Below, in pieces: positions 28,636 through 39,506 of a stretch of DNA of 41,833 nucleotides. Position numbers and translations under genes: made by a program. The notes under the pieces were generated by a model. The model saw only the letters and a program-made list of their open reading frames with translations, was not told the DNA's origin and did not search any database. The stretch covers positions 1-41,833 of the forward strand of contig CANMCY010000019.1 of NCBI GenBank assembly GCA_947496375.1, given 5' to 3'. The stretch comes from Flavobacteriales bacterium (lineage in GTDB: Bacteria > Bacteroidota > Bacteroidia > NS11-12g > UBA955). How positions within the stretch are numbered: the stretch's first letter is position 1; each line of letters begins with the position of its first letter.

Positions 28636-29502
28636 TTATTTAAACGATAATTTTATATGGCCCAGCTGTAAACCGGCCCAGCCCGCCTGACTCACAATTA
28701 CCGGACTGTTTTTCTTGTTGACCGCATTTATTGGCGCCTCCAGGAACGTGTGGGTATGTCCACCCAAAATCACATCAATCCCGTGGGTTTCAGCAGCCAG
28801 CCTGCGGTCACTGATCTGATTTCCGGGATATTCAAAACCCACGTGGGAAAGCACAACGACCACATCACATTTCTCTTTATTCCTGAGTATATCCACCTGT
28901 TCCTGAACCGATTTTACAGGATCCTTGTAGACGACACCCCGACACAGGTCTGCAGGTATCAGTCCTTCCGGATTCACCCCCACACCGGTAATTCCAATTT
29001 TTAATCGTCCTTTTTTAACCAGATGCCGAGGTTGAATCAGGGTGTTGAGAGGCGTATTCACCAGCCCGTAATTACAGTTAACAAAGCCGAATCGGGCATG
29101 GTTGCGAATCAATCCGGCAAGGTGCTCCATTCCCATGTCAAAATCATGATTGCCCAGGGTGGTGGCTTCGTAACCTGCCATATTCATCCACTTGTATTCA
29201 GGCACACCGCCAAATCGATTGAAATATGGGGTTCCCTGAAATACATCCCCGCAATCCAACAAAAGACAATGCTCGTTTTTACTGCGGGCCTCATCCATCA
29301 GGGTTTTCAGGCGGGCTATACCTCCCTGACCTGCATATTTAGGATGGTTATCGGGAAAGGAATCCAATCGACTGTGAAAATCATTGGTATGCAAAATCAT
29401 CAACGACTGCTCGGCACGCGCAGCCCAGAGTTCATCCGGAGTAAGCAACGCCCCACCGGCCAATATCGCGCTATTTCTTAGGAACTGCCGCCTCGTTGGC
29501 AT
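28636..29502 (-). CDS. 5'-nucleotidase metallophosphatase domain protein (Tat-exported)
   Basis: About 288 aa from the ATG at 29502 (MPTRRQFLRNS), a twin-arginine signal with RRQFLR. The calcineurin-like metal ligands of the UshA N-terminal domain are all visible: HTNDFHSR, LDCGDVFQGTP, TLGNHDFDMG, VVVLSHVGFE and GGHTHTF. The C-terminal substrate-binding domain of UshA is missing from this protein and is encoded by the overlapping upstream gene. It presumably dephosphorylates nucleotides in the periplasm. A longer frame to 29568 would place the Tat motif internally and is rejected. Confidence 0.9.
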   Translation of the reverse strand: MPTRRQFLRNSAILAGGALLTPDELWAARAEQSLMILHTNDFHSRLDSFPDNHPKYAGQGGIARLKTLMDEARSKNEHCLLLDCGDVFQGTPYFNRFGGVPEYKWMNMAGYEATTLGNHDFDMGMEHLAGLIRNHARFGFVNCNYGLVNTPLNTLIQPRHLVKKGRLKIGITGVGVNPEGLIPADLCRGVVYKDPVKSVQEQVDILRNKEKCDVVVVLSHVGFEYPGNQISDRRLAAETHGIDVILGGHTHTFLEAPINAVNKKNSPVIVSQAGWAGLQLGHIKLSFK

Positions 29503-30238
29503 ATACAATCCTCCTTTCTGTTCTTTTCTGTACCACACCCAATTTTGCGGTTTCGTGCTGTATGCCAACTGTCAGGGCCCTGCGCACCGATATTCCGGTG
29601 TACACAATATCCAATGGTTTGTTAAACATGGCGAATCCGTCTCCACCCAGCGCAAGATAATCGGACGTAGCAACCCAATAATCCCGCCGACTGTCGAAGC
29701 GCCGCTCACCCAAAATGGCAGTGTAATTTGGCTTCTCATCCACTTCCAGTTTCAGCCCTGATATCGGATCGCCTCCCCGCTTCAAAACATGCCGGAAAAG
29801 ACTGTCCATGGCCATTCCCGATAACTTAACCACCACCACATTGTTTTCAAAGGGCATTACCTCATACATATTGCCCATGGTGATGGTGCCTGAAGGCAAT
29901 GCCGTACGCAATCCTCCCAGGTTTAAAACCGACAAATCTGCATGCATACCGGTGTTGGCAAACAGCACCGAATCGCCTGTGCGCAAAACGAGATCGGCAC
30001 ACAAACTTCCCAGGTTTGATGAGGGCCTTTCCGCGAAGTACCCGGTATCCGTTTTACCCACAAGACCTGAAGTAAATACCGTAAGTGAATCTCTGTATGG
30101 TTTCAGATAGCTTAACATGGCTGAGTCCTGAGCAATTTTGGCTGAAACCGATACCGCTGGAAAGTAATAATAATTAACGTTGCGCACCCCGCAGGAAGCT
30201 GCCGCTAACATGATTAATCCCAACAGATGAAATCGCAT
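29471..30238 (-). CDS. 5'-nucleotidase C-terminal domain lipoprotein
   Basis: 255 aa. The lipoprotein signal ends LAAASC (Cys16). The body is the UshA C-terminal domain: RPSSNLGSLCADLVL, VLNLGGLRTALPSGTITMGNMYEVMPFENNVVVVKLSG in order, and the adenine-stacking region YWVATSDYLALGGDGFAMF. It specifies nucleotide binding but has no metal site, so it should need the metallophosphatase encoded just downstream, whose start it overlaps by 32 nt. Each half carries its own export signal (lipoprotein versus Tat). A TTAATTTG box lies 5 nt before the ATG. Confidence 0.9.
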   Translation of the reverse strand: MRFHLLGLIMLAAASCGVRNVNYYYFPAVSVSAKIAQDSAMLSYLKPYRDSLTVFTSGLVGKTDTGYFAERPSSNLGSLCADLVLRTGDSVLFANTGMHADLSVLNLGGLRTALPSGTITMGNMYEVMPFENNVVVVKLSGMAMDSLFRHVLKRGGDPISGLKLEVDEKPNYTAILGERRFDSRRDYWVATSDYLALGGDGFAMFNKPLDIVYTGISVRRALTVGIQHETAKLGVVQKRTERRIVYANEAAVPKK

Positions 30239-30243
30239 GACCG

Positions 30244-30324
30244 CAAATTAACAAGAATTAGACGCTTTGTGCGAAAAATGAACCCAAGTCTTAGCAATTT
30301 CATAATATAAATATACGAAATTTG
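30244..30324. promoter_or_regulatory. Divergent promoters between nucleotidase and nuclease operons
   Basis: On the minus strand TTAATTTG (30251-30244) precedes the 30238 ATG by 5 nt. On the plus strand GAAATTTG (30317-30324) precedes the 30339 ATG by 14 nt. Each matches the TAnnTTTG box at 7 of 8 positions. The shared 100-nt gap would allow joint control, for example by phosphate; I see no obvious Pho-box-like direct repeat. Confidence 0.4.
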
Positions 30325-30338
30325 CGTAACAATTCCCA

Positions 30339-31310
30339 ATGAAAAACACCCTTTTCGCCCTTATTGGCCTGCTAACAACCCTTGGAGTGCAGGCACAATG
30401 CAATGAACTGTTCATTTCCGAGTATGTGGAAGGAACCCGCAATAACAAAGCTTTGGAAATTTACAATCCGGGGAACAGCCCGATTGATTTGAGCAAATAC
30501 CGCGTTACCCGCTGGCAAAATGGCTCTGCTGTTTGGGGCAGCCAGTATAGCGATATTTTAACCGGTACCATTGGTGCAAATGAAGTAAAAGTGCTGATTA
30601 TTGACAGAAGAGACACAACCCAAACGGGAACAGATACTCCGGTAACCTATAATCTGCGTTCTAAAGGCGACTTATTCCTATCCAAAGACTACAACACTTC
30701 TTTCTCCATGAGTTTTAATGGGGATGATGCCCTGAGTCTGGATAAACTGAATCCGGCCAATAGCCAGTGGATACCCGTTGACATTTTTGGTAAAATCGGA
30801 CAGCAACCCCAATTGCCTTCAAACCCAAGCCGCACCATTGGCTGGAGTGATTCATTCCCTTACAATACGGGCCTGGGATTATGGTGCACCATTGACAAAA
30901 CCCTGATCCGCAAAAGCAGCATAAAACAGGGCGTAACCTCCAATCCTGCCAACTTTAACCCCAAAAAAGAATGGTCAGTGTATCCTGTCAACACCTTCGA
31001 TTCCCTGCGCACCCACATTTGTGATTGCAATAAGTTCGCTGCCTCGGTTGAAAAACTGACTACCAAAACCCTGCAAATCTTCCCAAATCCGGGTTCAACC
31101 ATGATCAATGCCTTTGTCGATGCGGATATAACCCGCATTTACGCCATAGATGCAACCGGAAGAAAAATCGAACTCAACGCCGAAATGCAACACCCCAATG
31201 GTTTTGCCATTGCAAACATCAATACCACCACTTTAAGTGCCGGTATTTATCATTTGCAGGCCATTACAGCCAATAATACAACCTACACCACACGGTTCAT
31301 CAAACAATGA
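30339..31310 (+). CDS. Secreted lamin-tail-domain protein with T9SS type A sorting domain
   Basis: 323 aa. Signal peptide 1-20 (GVQAQ). Residues 21-155 are a lamin-tail domain (LFISEYVEGTRNNKALEIYNP, SFNGDDALSL, VDIFGKIG). This variant is the one found at the front of extracellular nucleases such as ExeM-type enzymes (family knowledge, from memory). About 240-323 is a type A sorting domain (LQIFPNPGSTMIN, RIYAIDATGRKIE, LSAGIYHLQAI). There is no nuclease domain of its own, so it may dock a nuclease or DNA to the surface. It is the first gene of the operon with the TonB receptor (ATGA overlap) and endonuclease I. Confidence 0.88.
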   Translation: MKNTLFALIGLLTTLGVQAQCNELFISEYVEGTRNNKALEIYNPGNSPIDLSKYRVTRWQNGSAVWGSQYSDILTGTIGANEVKVLIIDRRDTTQTGTDTPVTYNLRSKGDLFLSKDYNTSFSMSFNGDDALSLDKLNPANSQWIPVDIFGKIGQQPQLPSNPSRTIGWSDSFPYNTGLGLWCTIDKTLIRKSSIKQGVTSNPANFNPKKEWSVYPVNTFDSLRTHICDCNKFAASVEKLTTKTLQIFPNPGSTMINAFVDADITRIYAIDATGRKIELNAEMQHPNGFAIANINTTTLSAGIYHLQAITANNTTYTTRFIKQ

Positions 31311-33991
31311 GATTTTCGCTAACCCTGGCGATCCTGTGCTTTTCACACTGGCTGCATGCACAGGTGAAAATCGTGGGCAAGGTAACCGATGCCCTCACCG
31401 GCGAAGGACTTAAGGGGGCTGTTGTCAGCAGCAGGGCTGTATCTGCCATTTCCGCTAACGACGGTAGTTTCACCCTGACCCTGGTAGGCGGCAACCACGT
31501 TTTGATAGCCAGTCTGGATGGATTCAGCAGCGACACCCTCTCTGTGTTGGGCGACCGCAGTCTGATACCCAACATCGTTTTCAGACTGGAAAACCTCAGC
31601 ACCGATGTGCAGGCCGTGCAGATTACCGCTTCCCTGGCCAAAGACCGCAAAACCCCTATTGCCTACAGCAATCTGAATGGAAAAACCATCAGCGAACAGC
31701 TGGGCAGCGCAGACATGCCCATGCTGCTGAATGCTACTCCGGGCGTGTATGCTACGCAGCAAGGCGGTGGAGCAGGCGATGCGCGAATTACCATCCGTGG
31801 TTTCAACCAGCGAAATATTGCGGTGATGATTGACGGGATACCGGTGAACGACATGGAAAACGGCGAAGTGTACTGGAGCAACTGGTTTGGCCTGAGCGAA
31901 GTAACCGCCCTTACCCAAGTTCAACGAGGACTTGGCAGCAGCCGCATTGCCAACCCTGCCGTGGGTGGCACCATGAACATCATCACCAAAGGCGTATCAT
32001 CCAAGTTTAAGGCGTCTGTGAATGCCGAATATGGAGATTCGCGCTACCAGAAGTATTCTGCCACCATCAATACAGGCCGGCTAAAAGGCAACTGGGGCGC
32101 TATTTTCAGTTTTACCAAAAGAAGTAGCACCGGCTATGTGGATGCATTGTTCGATGATATGTACAGCTACTACGGTCGCATTGAAAAGAAATTTGGCAAA
32201 AAACACACCCTCTCGCTAACCGCAGTAGGAGCACCGCAAAGCCATGGACAACGGAGCTTTCGGGCACGCCTAAGTCTTTACGACAGGGGACTGGCCATGA
32301 AACTGGGTATGGACACCATTGTGGGCAATATGCCTGTGAATCAGGGCAGAAAATACAACCAGCACTGGGGATGGCTGAATGAGGCGAGAATCACAGAGGA
32401 ATGGGATACTCTTTGGTCTAAAGATTACCGAAAAAACGAGAGGGTCAATGCCTTTCACAAGCCCCAGGTATACCTGAAACACGATTGGAAACCCTCTGAT
32501 AAAACAATAATCAGTAGTGTTGGGTATATTTCTATAGGCAACGGCGGTGGAACTTCAGGAACAAAAATTGGCCAAGATGGAACTTATGGATTGTATAATA
32601 TGCAATCTGCTTGGTGGGTAAATAATAGAAGAATTGATTTTCTTGGACAAAACCCCGATCCTACCTTCAGTTCAACTGAATTAAGATCCTTTGCTATTCT
32701 GCAACGCAGTGTTAATAATCATAGATGGATTGGAATGCTGAGCACGATTAATCATAAGATTAACAGATTTTGGAATATTACCGGCGGTATAGATGCAAGG
32801 ACATACAGAGCCCAGCACTATCGTGAAGTTTATGACCTCCTGGGTGGTGATTATTTTGTTCCACAAAACGGATTATTGGATCCCTACCGGAGCAAAGACG
32901 ATTTGATGTATCGCAAAGGGGACAAATTTGAATATAACAATGATGGTTTGGTTCGATGGATTGGTGCATTTTCGGAAATTGAATATTCACAGGGAAGAAC
33001 CACCGCTTTTTTCAATATAAGTTCAACGTATTGTGCATATCGTCGCATAGATTATTTTAGAAGAAACCAAGACAGCATGCCCCGTGTTTCTGACTGGGTA
33101 AACCGACCCGGATTTACTGTAAAGACTGGTTTAAACAGAAATTTAAATCGCCATCTGAATGTGTTTGGGAATTTGGGTTACCTGAACAGACCTACCCGAT
33201 TCAACAACGTTTTTGACAGAAATAATGCAGAAATTAAAGATGCCCAAAACGAAAAAGTATATTCTTTGGAAATTGGTTCAGGATATAAAAGTAGAATTTT
33301 TAGTTTAGACGTTAATGGATATTATACCTATTGGCAAAATCGACCCGCTAATTCCTTGCCAACCTACAGAGATGCTGATGACAATGTATTTACAGTAAAC
33401 ATAAATGGCATGAAAGCCCGGCACATGGGCGTTGAATTGGCGGGTGTATTAAAACCCGGCAATGGCATTACTATCCAGAGTGCATTAAGTTTAGCAGACT
33501 GGTTATGGCTATCGGGCGATGGCAGCGTAATACGCAATGATGCCGGAGACTCTGTAGGGTTTATTGATTTTGATGCCGGTGGCGTTCATGTTGGCGATGC
33601 GGCCCAATGCCAGTGGACCTGGAGCATACGTTGGGAGCCCACCCTGCTGAAAGGCGCATACATTTCAGCCCAATACGTGCATTTCTGGAAACATTTTGCC
33701 GATTTTGACCCACTTTCTTTGATAGATGACTATAAAGGCAAAGAATCATTCAGAATTCCTGCTTACTGGTATCTAAACCTGTCAGCTGGATACAATTTTA
33801 CGGCATTCAAACATGGGCAGTTATCCATTTATACCAATTGCCAGAACATCACCAATAACCTCTACATCAGCGATGCCCAGCATAGAGTTCAAACCGGCTG
33901 GCCACCTGCGTCTGTTTTTAATCCCAAAAACCTCGAAGTATTTGTTTCCCCCGGATTCCGCTACACCACCGGTATTCGCTATACCTTCTAA
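31307..33991 (+). CDS. TonB-dependent receptor
   Basis: 894 aa outer-membrane importer. Signal peptide 1-19 (LHAQ). A carboxypeptidase-regulatory-like domain is at about 20-95 (KIVGKVTDALTGEGLKGAVV). The plug is at about 112-228 (ITIRGFNQRNIAVMIDGIPVND, GTMNIITKG). A large barrel ends RYTTGIRYTF with the terminal aromatic. No SusD-like lipoprotein follows. Its place between a lamin-tail protein and a secreted endonuclease suggests DNA fragments or nucleotides as substrate (inference). Residues about 394-701 are coded by DNA much richer in A/T than the ends. Confidence 0.93.
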   Translation: MRFSLTLAILCFSHWLHAQVKIVGKVTDALTGEGLKGAVVSSRAVSAISANDGSFTLTLVGGNHVLIASLDGFSSDTLSVLGDRSLIPNIVFRLENLSTDVQAVQITASLAKDRKTPIAYSNLNGKTISEQLGSADMPMLLNATPGVYATQQGGGAGDARITIRGFNQRNIAVMIDGIPVNDMENGEVYWSNWFGLSEVTALTQVQRGLGSSRIANPAVGGTMNIITKGVSSKFKASVNAEYGDSRYQKYSATINTGRLKGNWGAIFSFTKRSSTGYVDALFDDMYSYYGRIEKKFGKKHTLSLTAVGAPQSHGQRSFRARLSLYDRGLAMKLGMDTIVGNMPVNQGRKYNQHWGWLNEARITEEWDTLWSKDYRKNERVNAFHKPQVYLKHDWKPSDKTIISSVGYISIGNGGGTSGTKIGQDGTYGLYNMQSAWWVNNRRIDFLGQNPDPTFSSTELRSFAILQRSVNNHRWIGMLSTINHKINRFWNITGGIDARTYRAQHYREVYDLLGGDYFVPQNGLLDPYRSKDDLMYRKGDKFEYNNDGLVRWIGAFSEIEYSQGRTTAFFNISSTYCAYRRIDYFRRNQDSMPRVSDWVNRPGFTVKTGLNRNLNRHLNVFGNLGYLNRPTRFNNVFDRNNAEIKDAQNEKVYSLEIGSGYKSRIFSLDVNGYYTYWQNRPANSLPTYRDADDNVFTVNINGMKARHMGVELAGVLKPGNGITIQSALSLADWLWLSGDGSVIRNDAGDSVGFIDFDAGGVHVGDAAQCQWTWSIRWEPTLLKGAYISAQYVHFWKHFADFDPLSLIDDYKGKESFRIPAYWYLNLSAGYNFTAFKHGQLSIYTNCQNITNNLYISDAQHRVQTGWPPASVFNPKNLEVFVSPGFRYTTGIRYTF

Positions 33992-34002
33992 CAATAAATT
34001 GC

Positions 34003-36189
34003 ATGAAAAAACTCATATTTTCTCTCATTACATTAACCTGCACCGGCCTATTTGGGCAGGCATCCCTCCCCACTAGCTGGGATATGAATAATGTAACCAC
34101 CCCTCCTACAGGATGGAGCCACAAACTAGACGTATTTGTGGGCAATCTCACCTACACCGGAGCCGGATACTTCAATTCAACGCCTCAAGCAATTCGCCTG
34201 GATGCGAATGGTGAATATCTGCAGGTATTTTTTGCAGGCCGCGCAGATACGGTGGAATATTACATACGAACCAACCCCGGAACAGACCCCGGAACCGTTT
34301 TTAACATCGAAGAAAGCGTAGATGGCACCACATGGACCAATGTGCGCAACTACACCAAGTCCTTGCCACAAACCATCACCAAACACATGGTGCGTCTAAA
34401 ACCAAGCAGTAGGTATCTGCGCTTTTTTTATACTACCAAACAAACCGGCTTTAACGTGGCGCTGGATGATGTGTTGGTAAAACCTGCAGGACCTTCTACC
34501 AACCCTGAAATCGCTCTATTTGAAGGCAGTAACCCGCTGATTAACGGTGGCAATTTCAACCCCGGAAATTCCGGCCTTTACCCTGTCACCATCAAAAACA
34601 CCGGGATAGGTGAGGCATTAAAAATCGACTCTGTCCGTTTCACCGGCCCTGATGCCCCGTACTTTAAAACCGGAGGAGTACCCGATACCATCCTGGCAAA
34701 ATCTGAAAAAAACATGATTATTCAGTTGATTGGGGCTCCCGCAGGTTCGGCCAAAGCTACCATGAAGATTTACAGCAACGATGGGGTTGGCAATGCCATG
34801 TATGCCCTTAACATACACGCCATTAGTGGCAGTTACGCTACTGAACCCACTGCCGTTCCCTCACTCAATTTCTCTACAGTGCGTGCATGGCAGCTAAAAG
34901 TTAACGCCGGCGTTACCAACGCAGAAAATCTCCTAATCCTGGTATCCAAAGACAGCATCACCGAAAGCCCCGCCGACGGCATGGCCTATGAAAAAGGTTC
35001 TTACATTGGCAAAGCCAGGGTCATTGGCAACGGACCTTCAGGCGAATACAGAATTGATCAGATACTAGCCAATACCACTTACCATGTAAAAGCTTTCGCA
35101 TGGAACGGATATGGTCAGTACATCAACTACAACCAAACCGGTTTTGCCACCAATAAAGAAACTACCCCGGGATTGAACACAGGTAGCTACTATGCAGGCA
35201 TCAGCCCTGCTGACACCCAATTTATTGCCAAGCTGCGCACCAGATTGAGGACCAACCATTTTCAAATCTACTACTCCAACTATGGAACCACCATGGTAGA
35301 AGATTTTGCCGCCTACGACACCACCGGAGGAAAACGCGTACTGACTTGCACCTACTCAGGATACAAACGCCTTTTCACACCCCCCATCATTTGGGATACC
35401 ATGAGCCGTGAACACGCCTATCCACGAAGCTGGATGCCCATTCCCTCCAGTGCAGCCACCGATAGTGCCTGCGGAACCGATTTTTACGCCCTTTTCCCGG
35501 TTCACCAAAACAAAGCCAATGCCGTAAGAAGCAACGTGCCCTACAATAACCTGAAAACAGTAACATTCCAGTTCCTGGAAGGAAAATATGGAATGGATAG
35601 TTCAGGGAACCTGGCCTATGAACCACCCAATCGCGTTAAAGGCATGATGGCTCGTGCCTGTTTCTACATCTGTGCGGCCTACCACACAGCAGCCAAACCC
35701 TTTACCCTTCCCACCTCCAACCAGTTCATCAACGATTTACAGGACCAACAAGTGTTAAAACGCTGGAACAACCAATTCCCACCCGATAAATTTGAAATGG
35801 CGAGACAGGAGTATGCAGCATTCAAACAAAACAGCCGCAATCCCTTTATTGATAACCCCAACTGGGCCTGCTTTATCGACTTCAAAAATATGGGATATGT
35901 GTCCAGCGGTGATTGTAACAAATTCAGCTCGGTAAAACCTGCCATTCAAACCCTGCAACTAACTGCCATGCCCAATCCTAGCAGCCAATACAGCATCATT
36001 AATCTTGAGGCATTTAAATCCCAAAATGTCTCATGGTTGCTCATGGATATCACCGGTGCGGTTATCATGGAAGGCAATACTGCAAATGCAACCTTACAGC
36101 TCAATATGGGCCACCTACCCGTGGGTGCGTACATGTTTTATGCCAAAGGAAACCAGGCGCATGCGGCCTTGAAAGTGGTTAAAAATTAA
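34003..36189 (+). CDS. Secreted endonuclease I with T9SS type A sorting domain
   Basis: 728 aa. Signal peptide 1-19. A beta-sandwich of the choice-of-anchor type is at about 22-162. An Ig/abnormal-spindle-like domain is at about 167-275 (NPEIALFEGSNPLINGG) and a fibronectin-like domain at about 280-385. The endonuclease I domain is at about 400-640, with REHAYPRSW (469-477), HQNKANAVRSNVPYNN (501-516), RVKGMMAR (544-551) and RNPFIDNP (612-619). The type A sorting domain is at 650-728. The family cleaves DNA or RNA non-specifically with a His-metal finger. It starts 11 nt after the TonB receptor stop and ends the operon before a strong terminator. Confidence 0.92.
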   Translation: MKKLIFSLITLTCTGLFGQASLPTSWDMNNVTTPPTGWSHKLDVFVGNLTYTGAGYFNSTPQAIRLDANGEYLQVFFAGRADTVEYYIRTNPGTDPGTVFNIEESVDGTTWTNVRNYTKSLPQTITKHMVRLKPSSRYLRFFYTTKQTGFNVALDDVLVKPAGPSTNPEIALFEGSNPLINGGNFNPGNSGLYPVTIKNTGIGEALKIDSVRFTGPDAPYFKTGGVPDTILAKSEKNMIIQLIGAPAGSAKATMKIYSNDGVGNAMYALNIHAISGSYATEPTAVPSLNFSTVRAWQLKVNAGVTNAENLLILVSKDSITESPADGMAYEKGSYIGKARVIGNGPSGEYRIDQILANTTYHVKAFAWNGYGQYINYNQTGFATNKETTPGLNTGSYYAGISPADTQFIAKLRTRLRTNHFQIYYSNYGTTMVEDFAAYDTTGGKRVLTCTYSGYKRLFTPPIIWDTMSREHAYPRSWMPIPSSAATDSACGTDFYALFPVHQNKANAVRSNVPYNNLKTVTFQFLEGKYGMDSSGNLAYEPPNRVKGMMARACFYICAAYHTAAKPFTLPTSNQFINDLQDQQVLKRWNNQFPPDKFEMARQEYAAFKQNSRNPFIDNPNWACFIDFKNMGYVSSGDCNKFSSVKPAIQTLQLTAMPNPSSQYSIINLEAFKSQNVSWLLMDITGAVIMEGNTANATLQLNMGHLPVGAYMFYAKGNQAHAALKVVKN

Positions 36190-36210
36190 CATTCTTTTAA
36201 AAATTATAGG

Positions 36211-36241
36211 GAAAGGGCCTCAAGTGGGGCCCTTTCTTTTT
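36211..36241 (+). terminator. Rho-independent terminator of the nuclease operon
   Basis: A perfect 9-bp stem, GAAAGGGCC (36211-36219) and GGCCCTTTC (36228-36236), with an 8-nt loop and five T residues immediately after. It lies 21 nt past the endonuclease I stop. Confidence 0.9.
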
Positions 36242-36284
36242 GTAAACCACTGTTTTTGGCATAATATTGGCAACAATTTAACCA

Positions 36285-36668
36285 ATGTTGCCCCCGATTT
36301 TTGCCGCTGTTGCCACCTTTTTAACATCCTTTACCGCAAGACCCGCCGAAGATGCCAACCGGCTCACACGCCTCTTTGGAGAAGGTAAATCAGAAGAAAT
36401 TGCTGCTTACTTCAGCGCCAGCGTGCAACTGACAACCCCCGGAAAACAAGGGGTTTACAGTAAAAGTCAGGCAAAAATGATTCTTTCCGGATTCTTTGAA
36501 CAGAATACAGCCGTTAAAGCCAAATCCTTGCAACAGGGTAAAAGTGAAAACGGTGCGCACTTTCTGGTGATTGCCCTCACCACCCGGTCAGGCGAATATA
36601 AAACAACCGTGTTTTATCGCGGCAGCGGCAAGGCCATCAGTATTCACGAACTGAAAATTGAGAAATAA
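36285..36668 (+). CDS. DUF4783-family secreted protein
   Basis: 127 aa. A short signal peptide (to about SFTARPA, residue 21) is followed by an NTF2-like small alpha-beta domain (LTRLFGEGKSEEIAAYFSASVQLTTPGKQGVYSKSQAKMIL in sequence order, later THFLVIALTTRSGEYKTTVFY-like strands). DUF4783 genes commonly precede nadC in Bacteroidota, as here (17-nt gap), but no function is known to me. TAATATTG at 36262-36269 is a near-match -7 box 15 nt before the ATG. Confidence 0.85.
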   Translation: MLPPIFAAVATFLTSFTARPAEDANRLTRLFGEGKSEEIAAYFSASVQLTTPGKQGVYSKSQAKMILSGFFEQNTAVKAKSLQQGKSENGAHFLVIALTTRSGEYKTTVFYRGSGKAISIHELKIEK

Positions 36669-36672
36669 CACT

Positions 36673-36680
36673 GAACTTTG
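36673..36680 (+). promoter_or_regulatory. nadC -7 box (GAACTTTG)
   Basis: Seven of eight matches to TAnnTTTG, 5 nt before the nadC ATG. It suggests an internal, leaderless promoter in addition to read-through from the DUF4783 gene. Confidence 0.5.
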
Positions 36681-36685
36681 CCGGC

Positions 36686-37546
36686 ATGGATTTTAACAGC
36701 CCGGAACTTATTGCTTTTATTAAAACCTGTATCCAGGAAGATTGCGGCGATGGTGACCACTCCTCACTGGCCAGTATTCCTGCGGGAACACAAGGACATT
36801 CACGGCTTTTGTTGAAAGAAACAGGCGTGATTGCGGGCATGGAACTGGCTCAAACCATACTCAACGTCATTGACCCTTCTATCGTTTTTACACCCTACCA
36901 CAGGGATGGAGAACACCTTACAAAGGGAACCCTGCTGGCAGAGGCCAAAGGTTCCGTGCACAGTCTGCTGCTGGCAGAACGCCTGCTGCTCAATTTTATG
37001 CAGCGTTTATCCGGAATTGCCACACAGACTGCCGAAATGGTAAAATTAACCGAAGGTTACAAAGCCAAAATCCTGGATACCCGCAAAACCACACCCGGTT
37101 TGCGTTTGCTGGAAAAATGGGCCGTAAAAACCGGTGGCGGAGAAAATCACCGCATCGGGCTGTATGACATGATCATGCTGAAAGACAACCATGTGGATTG
37201 TTCAGGAGGCATTACCTCTGCAGTAAATCGCACGGTTGATTACCTGCAAAAACACAACAAATCGCTGAAAATAGAGGTGGAAACCCGCAATATGGATGAA
37301 GTGAGAGAAGCCCTTGAAATCGGGAAAGTAGACCGCATTATGCTGGATAATTTTACCCCCGATGCCTGCAAAGAGGCGGTGGAATGGATTGCAGGCCGCT
37401 GCGAAACCGAGGCCTCCGGCGGAATTCATACCGGCAATCTGCGCGAATATGCCGCCACAGGCGTGGATTATATTTCACTCGGCGCCCTCACCCATTCTGT
37501 GAAAAGTCTGGATATCAGCATGAAAACCAAATCTATGATTGCTTGA
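36686..37546 (+). CDS. nadC: Nicotinate-nucleotide pyrophosphorylase (quinolinate PRTase)
   Basis: 286 aa, converting quinolinate and PRPP to nicotinate mononucleotide in de novo NAD synthesis. It has the opening EDCGDGDHSS, LLLAERLLLNFMQRLSGIAT, the substrate-binding DTRKTTPGLR (about 131-140), GGGENHR and KDNH (166-169), IEVETRN, MLDNF, and the phosphate-binding ASGGI followed by GVDYISLGALTHS. It is complete. Together with nadK at the other end, the window covers two NAD(P) steps in different operons. Its TGA overlaps the TTG start of the next gene. Confidence 0.96.
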   Translation: MDFNSPELIAFIKTCIQEDCGDGDHSSLASIPAGTQGHSRLLLKETGVIAGMELAQTILNVIDPSIVFTPYHRDGEHLTKGTLLAEAKGSVHSLLLAERLLLNFMQRLSGIATQTAEMVKLTEGYKAKILDTRKTTPGLRLLEKWAVKTGGGENHRIGLYDMIMLKDNHVDCSGGITSAVNRTVDYLQKHNKSLKIEVETRNMDEVREALEIGKVDRIMLDNFTPDACKEAVEWIAGRCETEASGGIHTGNLREYAATGVDYISLGALTHSVKSLDISMKTKSMIA

Positions 37547-38109
37547 AAAAAACAATAATTTATATCGCCATTGCCCTGTGCGCCTGTAAAACCCAGACAG
37601 CCGTTGCCGTTAAAGAACTTGCACCGTTTAGCGACAGCACGGCTGCAACACCCGCAAGCATTGCGCTGAGCTCACCCAAAACAGAACGCAGGATTCCTGT
37701 GCCACCCAAAACCCTTGTGTGGCTTGACTTTGAAACCGGCTACAAAAAAGCCGTGGCTGAAAACAAAATTATCCTGGTGGACATGTACACCACCTGGTGC
37801 TACTGGTGCAAGGTGATGGACAAAGAAACCTTTACCGATTCGGCAGTGATTGCGGAAATCAATACCCATTTTGTTCCCGTTAAAATGAATCCTGAAGTGG
37901 ATGCTACGTTCCGATTTGGCGATACCGTTATGAATAATGCTGAACTATACCTGTGGCTGGGTTATGGCAAACGATTCGGGTTCCCCACCTCCTACTTCTG
38001 GCTGCAACCGGGCAAATCCGAAGAACGATATTCCCTTGCCGGCTACCACGAACCCGCCGCATTCATGCAGATACTCAACCAAATCAAATCTAAAAAAGCC
38101 GCCAAATGA
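37543..38109 (+). CDS. Thioredoxin-like lipoprotein
   Basis: 188 aa from a TTG at 37543 overlapping the nadC stop (TTGA); this start gives a lipoprotein signal KKTIIYIAIALCAC (lipid on Cys15). A Ser/Thr/Pro-rich tether (about 16-55) precedes a thioredoxin-fold domain (DUF255/thioredoxin_7 type) with the redox pair in TTWCYWCKVMD, a cis-Pro region FGFPTSYFW and the last strand. It probably reduces or isomerises disulfides in the periplasm, anchored to a membrane. The longer upstream frame runs through nadC and is not the gene. Its stop overlaps rlmD. Confidence 0.82.
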   Translation: MKKTIIYIAIALCACKTQTAVAVKELAPFSDSTAATPASIALSSPKTERRIPVPPKTLVWLDFETGYKKAVAENKIILVDMYTTWCYWCKVMDKETFTDSAVIAEINTHFVPVKMNPEVDATFRFGDTVMNNAELYLWLGYGKRFGFPTSYFWLQPGKSEERYSLAGYHEPAAFMQILNQIKSKKAAK

Positions 38110-39506
38110 GACGGAAATTCAAAAAAATTCGCCTTATTGAAAACCTGGAAATACAGGCAGCAGTGGCAGAAGGAAACTGCATAGCCCGAACCGACAATCA
38201 GGTGGTGTTTGTGAAATTTGCGGCCCCCGGTGATGTAGCCGATGTACAGGTGGTGGCCAAGAAAAGAAACTACCAGGAAGGCCGCATTGTTAAGTTACAC
38301 AAGGCCTCCGACAAACGCGTTGAACCCTTCTGCAAACACTACCAGACCTGCGGCGGCTGCAAGTGGCAACACCTGGATTACAAGGAGCAACTGGAATTCA
38401 AACAACAGCAGGTAATTGATGCCTTCGAACGGCTCGCCGGGCTCTCCGGTTTTGAAGTGCTGCCCATTTTGGGATCTGCAAAAACCCGTGAATACCGAAA
38501 CAAACTGGATCTTACCTTCAGCAACCGCGGCTGGGTAACCACATTCGACCCAAACGCAGATACCAGGCCGAATGCGCTGGGGTTCCATATACCCGGCAGG
38601 TTTGACAAGGTGATGGACATTGAGAAATGCCATTTAATGACAAATTTTGTCAATGACATAAATTGTCATATTAAAACGTACTGTAATCAAAACGGCTATT
38701 CCTACTACGATTTAATCGCCCAGCAGGGGCTTATGCGCAACCTTATGCTGCGCTGCAACCGTAAAGGTGAATGGATGGTGCTGCTGAGCTTTTTTGAAAA
38801 TGATGAGCCCAAAATCAAGGCGCTGCTGGACAATATTAAAGATACGTTTCCGCAGGTTACCTCGCTGGTGTATGTCATCAATACCAAAAAGAACGACACC
38901 CTGCAGGATTTAACGGTTGAGTGCTACCATGGCAACGACCATTTGATAGAAGAACTGGGCGGACTGCATTTCAAAATCAGGCCACAAAGCTTTTTTCAGA
39001 CCAACACCGAGCAGGCCGAAGTGCTTTACAGCATTACCAAAGAATTTGCAGGATTAACCGGAAACGAGCTGGTGTATGACCTATACACCGGAACCGGTAG
39101 CATCGCCCTGTATGTGGCAGATAAAGCCCGCGAAGTGATAGGCATAGAATATGTGCCCGAAGCCATCATGGATGCCAAAGAAAACATGAAAATCAATGGC
39201 ATGGAACACCTGCAATTTTATGCGGGCGACATGAAGGAAATCCTCACAACCGAATTCATTGCGGCACATGGCAAACCCGATGTACTCATAACCGACCCGC
39301 CCCGCGACGGAATGCATCCCGATGTGGTGAAACGCATTCTGGAAACCGAACCGCCCCGCATTGTGTATGTGAGCTGCAACCCGGCTACCCAGGCCCGCGA
39401 TGCCAAACTGCTGGATGAAAAATACCGCCTGGTGAAGGTTCAGCCGGTAGACATGTTCCCCCACACCCACCACGTGGAAAATGTGGGGTTGTGGGAATTG
39501 CGGTAG
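38106..39506 (+). CDS. rlmD: 23S rRNA (uracil-1939-C5)-methyltransferase RlmD-like
   Basis: 466 aa, SAM-dependent RNA m5U methyltransferase (TrmA/RumA family). It has an N-terminal TRAM domain (about 8-65) and 4Fe-4S ligands C76, C82, C85 and C175 (FCKHYQTCGGC, DIEKCHL), as in RumA. The SAM motif is VYDLYTGTGSIALYVAD and the catalytic loop is ITDPPRDGMHPDV. The nucleophilic cysteine sits in YVSCNPATQARD, with the C-terminal VDMFPHTHHVENV. The ATG at 38106 overlaps the previous stop (ATGA). Paralogues acting on other uridines (RlmCD, TrmA) are possible, so the exact target base is inferred. Confidence 0.93.
   Translation: MRRKFKKIRLIENLEIQAAVAEGNCIARTDNQVVFVKFAAPGDVADVQVVAKKRNYQEGRIVKLHKASDKRVEPFCKHYQTCGGCKWQHLDYKEQLEFKQQQVIDAFERLAGLSGFEVLPILGSAKTREYRNKLDLTFSNRGWVTTFDPNADTRPNALGFHIPGRFDKVMDIEKCHLMTNFVNDINCHIKTYCNQNGYSYYDLIAQQGLMRNLMLRCNRKGEWMVLLSFFENDEPKIKALLDNIKDTFPQVTSLVYVINTKKNDTLQDLTVECYHGNDHLIEELGGLHFKIRPQSFFQTNTEQAEVLYSITKEFAGLTGNELVYDLYTGTGSIALYVADKAREVIGIEYVPEAIMDAKENMKINGMEHLQFYAGDMKEILTTEFIAAHGKPDVLITDPPRDGMHPDVVKRILETEPPRIVYVSCNPATQARDAKLLDEKYRLVKVQPVDMFPHTHHVENVGLWELR

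Follow-up and report, generated by a model that had tools for sequence, protein, structure and literature searches.

A lamin-tail protein, a TonB-dependent receptor and a secreted nuclease encoded together across Bacteroidota: a candidate nucleic-acid utilisation cassette

What function could unite a lamin-tail domain (LTD) protein, a TonB-dependent receptor and a secreted endonuclease I (EndoI) encoded side by side in a Flavobacteriales genome, and does the receptor import what the nuclease releases? The window (the whole stretch of DNA that was analysed, 41,833 nucleotides) corresponds to contig C19 of a nearly complete 2.49-Mb genome and contains a trio of intact same-strand ORFs at 30339-36189 (+). 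The first ORF (30339-31310, +) encodes a 323-aa protein with a signal peptide, an LTD of the ExeM/NucH type and a C-terminal T9SS type A tail; the second (31307-33991, +) encodes an 894-aa TonB-dependent receptor composed of a carboxypeptidase-regulatory-like N-terminal domain, a plug and a barrel; the third (34003-36189, +) encodes a 728-aa T9SS-secreted EndoI, with an N-terminal beta-sandwich and Ig/FN3-like region, the Endonuclease_1 domain and a T9SS tail. The LTD and receptor genes share a 4-nt ATGA overlap, the receptor and EndoI genes are separated by an 11-nt gap, and the trio is closed by an intrinsic terminator (36204-36245, +) followed by a U-tract, with a folding energy of -22.9 kcal/mol and a z-score of -3.9 that none of 200 shuffles equalled. 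The coordinates and the folding thus confirm the arrangement given in the original prediction, namely three co-oriented, tightly spaced genes ending at a strong terminator.

An inverted-repeat-like block (TAGCAATTTC-N15-GAAATTTGC, 30292-30325), a candidate promoter/operator, lies directly before the LTD start and is near-identical in four congeneric loci. The home genome contains no second exact copy, so the block does not tie the trio to other genes, and a search for a regulatory motif common to the trio and the phosphate genes found none. The two-part 5'-nucleotidase, which had been described as divergent from the trio, is indeed encoded there by two ORFs, one for the C-terminal half (29471-30238, -; PF02872) and one for the N-terminal, metallophosphatase half (28636-29568, -, likely true start 29502; PF00149). 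The halves are separate genes in relatives too, and the split is therefore no sequencing error; they are divergent from the trio in the window's relatives and co-directional with it in Crocinitomicaceae. The two halves carry different export signals (lipoprotein-like on the C-terminal half, Tat-like on the N-terminal half), and the enzyme is divided in this way throughout the family and in Crocinitomicaceae. The genes 3' of the trio (36285-39506, +) encode a DUF4783 protein, NadC, a thioredoxin-like protein and a RumA-type methyltransferase; the last three hold this position in most family genomes and DUF4783 in few, and all of them are probably unrelated to the cassette. A secreted-looking endonuclease/exonuclease/phosphatase family protein (PF03372; 221-1345, -), encoded 29 kb from the trio, is possibly another extracellular nuclease. 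The search against plasmid DNA gave no match.

The Pfam search assigns the LTD protein to PF00932 with 42 bits, and its homologues are the N-termini of ExeM/NucH endonucleases, in agreement with the nuclease-associated type proposed from the sequence; the match to the full-length ExeM model NF033680 (58 bits, cut-off 1300) is confined to residues 14-134. The T9SS tail is recognised in both secreted proteins by PF18962 (LTD 28.7 and EndoI 29.7 bits, cut-off 27) and by TIGR04183 (35.3 and 23.5 bits, cut-off 23), signal peptides can be read off both sequences, and the home genome carries a gene for the T9SS component SprA at another place. As a T9SS substrate, the LTD protein is therefore probably anchored at the surface. 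The predicted structure (pLDDT 91) has a lamin fold, with Z-scores of about 8 to lamin Ig domains, and its best structural match is the DUF4876 protein BT_1938 (Z 9.7 over 183 residues, rmsd 6.5); a PDB sequence search found weak relatives only. Of 60 LTD cores (median pI 4.3), 58 are acidic and two have a pI above 7; the LTD of the window has a pI of 7.8. The mostly acidic cores speak against simple binding of DNA by the LTD, which is therefore not claimed; the LTD could contact the receptor or the nuclease instead.

The receptor contains a plug domain (PF07715, 49 bits) and a sub-threshold CarbopepD_reg_2 match (Pfam), and its model (pLDDT 87) aligns with BtuB over 541 residues (VIA-align Z 35), so by predicted fold it is an ordinary TonB-dependent transporter. 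In the NCBIfam scan this protein matched models of other receptor families but none for SusC/RagA, and a PDB sequence search found no relative. The predicted fold resembles siderophore and B12 receptors, and BtuB-BtuG complexes are among the structural matches, which indicates that Bacteroidota receptors can employ surface partners other than SusD. Nothing in the modelled fold points to the cargo; the closest known transporter folds carry small ligands. The home genome contains 22 plug domains, three LTD-carrying ORFs and a single EndoI gene, and the window receptor alone has an LTD, EndoI or PLD gene beside it (0 of the 21 others). Two weak "LTD" matches near other receptors are located at the C-terminal ends of proteins and are read as tail matches, because the LTD profile includes the T9SS tail.

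EndoI enzymes cleave DNA and often RNA too. The domain in the third protein comprises residues 466-619 (PF04231, 82.7 bits, cut-off 25), and R469, E470 and H471, together with N506, R509, S510 and N511, are invariant across 14 aligned proteins, so the family motifs are as intact as had been stated; their catalytic roles (EH, and N as metal ligand) are presumed from knowledge of the family. The alternative nuclease found at related loci is a PLD-type enzyme with two HKD motifs. All 43 EndoI genes of the phylum loci encode the REH motif, and all 23 PLD genes encode two HxKx4D motifs. The closest solved structures to one PLD protein are mitochondrial cardiolipin hydrolase (Zucchini/MitoPLD group), the Nuc endonuclease and NucT; since these relatives include a lipid-hydrolase name, nuclease activity of the PLD proteins is considered likely, yet unproven. 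A DUF5689-type N-terminal domain is common to both kinds of nuclease (25 PLD, 16 EndoI). At locus L108, three consecutive EndoI genes are located 3' of the LTD-receptor pair, and both EndoI and PLD genes are present at L110 and L138.

Within the window's family, for which 58 related genomes were examined and 20 regions fully read, the order 5'-nucleotidase N-terminal half, C-terminal half, LTD, receptor and EndoI is maintained at receptor identities of approximately 52-80%. EndoI is present in 23 of 23 family genomes with the receptor versus 5 of 13 without it (Fisher p 4e-5, with kinship ignored), and no receptor without EndoI was found in this family. Genome G017 possesses the 5'-nucleotidase and EndoI with neither receptor nor LTD between them, and in genome G013 the LTD adjoins EndoI without the receptor; the persistence of EndoI in both genomes indicates that the nuclease is independent of the receptor. 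The idea that G013 had lost the LTD as well as the receptor was rejected, the LTD having been found next to EndoI.

Beyond the family, 80 named loci were selected solely on receptor similarity; they come from Crocinitomicaceae, Saprospiraceae, Salinivirgaceae, Prolixibacteraceae, marine Flavobacteriales and others. The LTD gene is immediately upstream of the receptor gene at 72 of 76 readable loci, or at 74 if frames skipped in gene calling are counted: the LTD of L082 is intact and masked by an over-extended neighbouring ORF, and that of L094 shares one ORF with the receptor. Re-inspection of the reading frames revealed no LTD at L084 and L115. The single 1318-aa frame of L094 (1967-5923) comprises the LTD, a cadherin domain and the receptor, and may be a natural fusion or an assembly artefact. 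A nuclease gene flanks the LTD-receptor pair at 65 of the 68 loci with readable downstream DNA, and this slot is filled by EndoI, by the PLD-type enzyme or by both (two loci); a count of downstream genes only had left six loci without a nuclease, and at L105, L111 and L151 the PLD gene is upstream of the LTD. The synteny check set in advance therefore found the trio conserved, and the proposal is not refuted on this point. Two loci of typical Bacteroidota appearance have titles that may be wrong, namely L117 (CP034120.1, titled Glaciecola amylolytica), with Crocinitomicaceae flanks, and L083 (VHBA01000075.1, titled Sphingomonadales), with the flanks of the window's genus.

Of 148 sampled Bacteroidota genomes, 26, the home genome among them, encode this LTD type (E<=1e-25), and LTD-receptor pairs beyond the home genome occur in G098, followed by EndoI, and in G102, followed by PLD. 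EndoI is fused to this LTD type at at least nine loci (L195, L200-L202, L204, L213 and L218-L220). In Flavobacterium johnsoniae, EndA1 and EndA2 have the composition fn3+LTD+EndoI and rise upon phosphate depletion alongside receptor systems (PMC8115612). The fusions and the nuclease flanking the pair support the predicted association of the locus with nucleic acid; the modularity of the nuclease slot (EndoI or PLD) and the spread of the cassette across the phylum go beyond the original prediction, whose interpretation as a whole is partly supported.

The receptor tree (94 rows) was built by a quick method with no bootstrap, and its starred branches are the well-supported ones. The LTD-associated receptors form one starred clade, and the receptors of L074, L162 and L163, which are 31-33% identical and have no LTD, mark its edge. 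Parsimony places about 10 switches between the EndoI and PLD labels on this tree, at least 4 of which are forced by starred branches; the figure of 4 is preferred because of the quick method and the lack of bootstrap. The receptors of L098 (EndoI) and L104 (PLD) are sisters. This repeated swap between unrelated phosphodiesterase folds next to one and the same pair is the strongest evidence that what the pair handles is a phosphodiester polymer and nothing incidental.

Taken together, the locus is probably a nucleic-acid utilisation cassette in which the LTD protein would occupy SusD's place and the receptor would import cleavage products. EndoI, secreted through the T9SS, would cleave extracellular DNA or RNA on the cell surface or close to it; the LTD protein would act as the external partner of the adjacent transporter, the position that SusD has in polysaccharide-utilisation loci (PULs). 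TonB-dependent transporters import, and the receptor would carry short oligonucleotides or nucleotides into the periplasm. 5'-Nucleotidases work in the periplasm, and the split enzyme would strip phosphate there, yielding phosphate and nucleosides; the scheme includes no periplasmic enzyme that would convert oligonucleotides into mononucleotides. We infer four elements of this scheme: that the LTD protein and the receptor form a complex, what they carry, which way it is transported and that the locus serves nutrition. Points that weigh against the scheme are the acidity of most LTD cores, the survival of EndoI without the receptor in G013 and G017, the fold match to BT_1938 from an iron-regulated receptor pair, the negative search for a motif common with phosphate genes and the small ligands of the closest transporter folds. 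A broader proposal is more tentative, its chance of being right judged slightly short of even: the LTD and this receptor clade may constitute a dedicated TonB-dependent importer of nucleic-acid fragments across Bacteroidota, with a T9SS-anchored LTD as its SusD and with any suitable secreted nuclease pluggable.

The layout recalls known nutrient loci. As in SusCD PULs, a surface partner and a TonB-dependent transporter are kept together with an exchangeable secreted depolymerase adjacent to them, but the cassette has a T9SS-exported LTD protein for SusD, a nuclease as the enzyme and a receptor with no SusC/RagA match. None of the proteins adjacent to the trio matched a SusD model, which agrees with the PUL-like layout without SusD suggested at the outset, and the lack of SusD and SusC/RagA matches is the reason why the cassette is placed with the kind of locus formed by PULs and phosphate utilisation systems (PUS) and is not called a PUL. 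In the Flavobacterium PUS, receptor systems are likewise clustered with phosphoesterases, and EndA1/EndA2, induced by phosphate depletion, contain LTD and EndoI in one chain; however, PusCD has a SusD, and EndA1/EndA2 appear there as orphans that lack a receptor partner (PMC8115612). ExeM/NucH endonucleases share the type of N-terminal domain with the cassette LTD, but there it forms part of a nuclease whose catalytic domain is of the EEP kind, whereas in the cassette it is a separate gene. BtuG-BtuB and the DUF4876-receptor pairs of Bacteroides also combine a receptor with a non-SusD surface partner, DUF4876 being the best fold match of the LTD, but these partners are lipoproteins for B12, or iron-regulated, and have no nuclease.

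The last comparison brings up an alternative, considered unlikely, in which the LTD-receptor pair takes up a complex of iron or of another metal and the nuclease is kept alongside through nutrient stress or the use of cell lysate. It could draw on the resemblance of the LTD model to BT_1938, on the siderophore- and B12-receptor-like fold and on a published table in which DUF4876-receptor pairs, BT_1938 with its neighbouring receptor among them, belong to the iron stimulons of both P. gingivalis and B. thetaiotaomicron (PMC10434189). However, DUF4876 proteins and their neighbours at six loci, the neighbours being partly covered, gave no match to the LTD or receptor profiles, so DUF4876 may be a different family, and metal uptake leaves unexplained both the nuclease of two unrelated folds in the flanks of the pair and the LTD-EndoI fusions. 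A channel for DNA uptake in natural transformation, rather than for feeding, is a still less probable reading. It is suggested by Riemerella anatipestifer, in which transformation requires both the receptor-like outer-membrane protein RA0C_RS04915 and its DUF5689/DUF5017 neighbour RS04920, a pair similar to the cassette by description and involved in DNA uptake (PMC8459023), and in which tonB mutants show impaired transformation (PMC8383284); moreover, DUF5689 recurs in the third genes of the cassette, and one receptor of the outgroup has a DUF5017 protein as its partner. The described Riemerella pair differs in having no nuclease and in its role, and a degradative endonuclease and a 5'-nucleotidase next to the receptor suit feeding; in the home genome, comEC (contig C6) adjoins neither the trio locus nor any receptor gene.

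Perhaps the LTD protein and the receptor only display or retain the nuclease at the surface, which would be of use in biofilms, in gliding or in getting free of DNA that traps the cell, with no import of anything derived from nucleic acid; such a role is improbable to much the same degree. LTD domains have been suggested to target proteins to membranes, and ExeM can largely do without its LTD when it degrades DNA in vivo (PMC6085458), but T9SS cargo has its own anchoring tail, display requires no TonB-dependent transporter, and the 5'-nucleotidase link indicates nutrition. Finally, the synteny might reflect nothing but the shared ancestry of a chromosomal region, given that conservation within the window's family extends to the wider surroundings (NadC, thioredoxin, RumA). 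This reading, which is deemed extremely improbable, is largely refuted by the flanks: the trio is intact in at least three unrelated contexts phylum-wide, which we take from family knowledge to be NadC/RumA, citrate synthase with a peptidase, and dihydroorotase, and the nuclease is replaced in place. The flanks vary from group to group, so the trio is either moved or preserved as a whole, which is not passive synteny; the 5'-nucleotidase halves accompany it in two of the three flank layouts.

The literature searched, which lay apart from subscription journals and preprints, contained no description of such a cassette and no account of how the products of DNA breakdown cross the outer membrane of Bacteroidota. 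Judged by that searchable literature, the parts are known already, and what is new is their combination in a cassette, the modularity of the nuclease slot and the spread across the phylum. Bacteroidota have been named as widespread degraders of extracellular DNA (PMC8289736), and extracellular DNA is a major source of phosphorus in water and sediment. For this process the locus offers candidates for the transporter and for its surface partner, along with exchangeable nucleases, and bacterial lamin-tail domains gain a concrete partner from it. As the carriers include cultured species (Brumimicrobium oceani), the question can be tested by deletion; if the proposed function is true, it would extend nutrient TonB-dependent transporters to a new class of substrate, nucleic acid.
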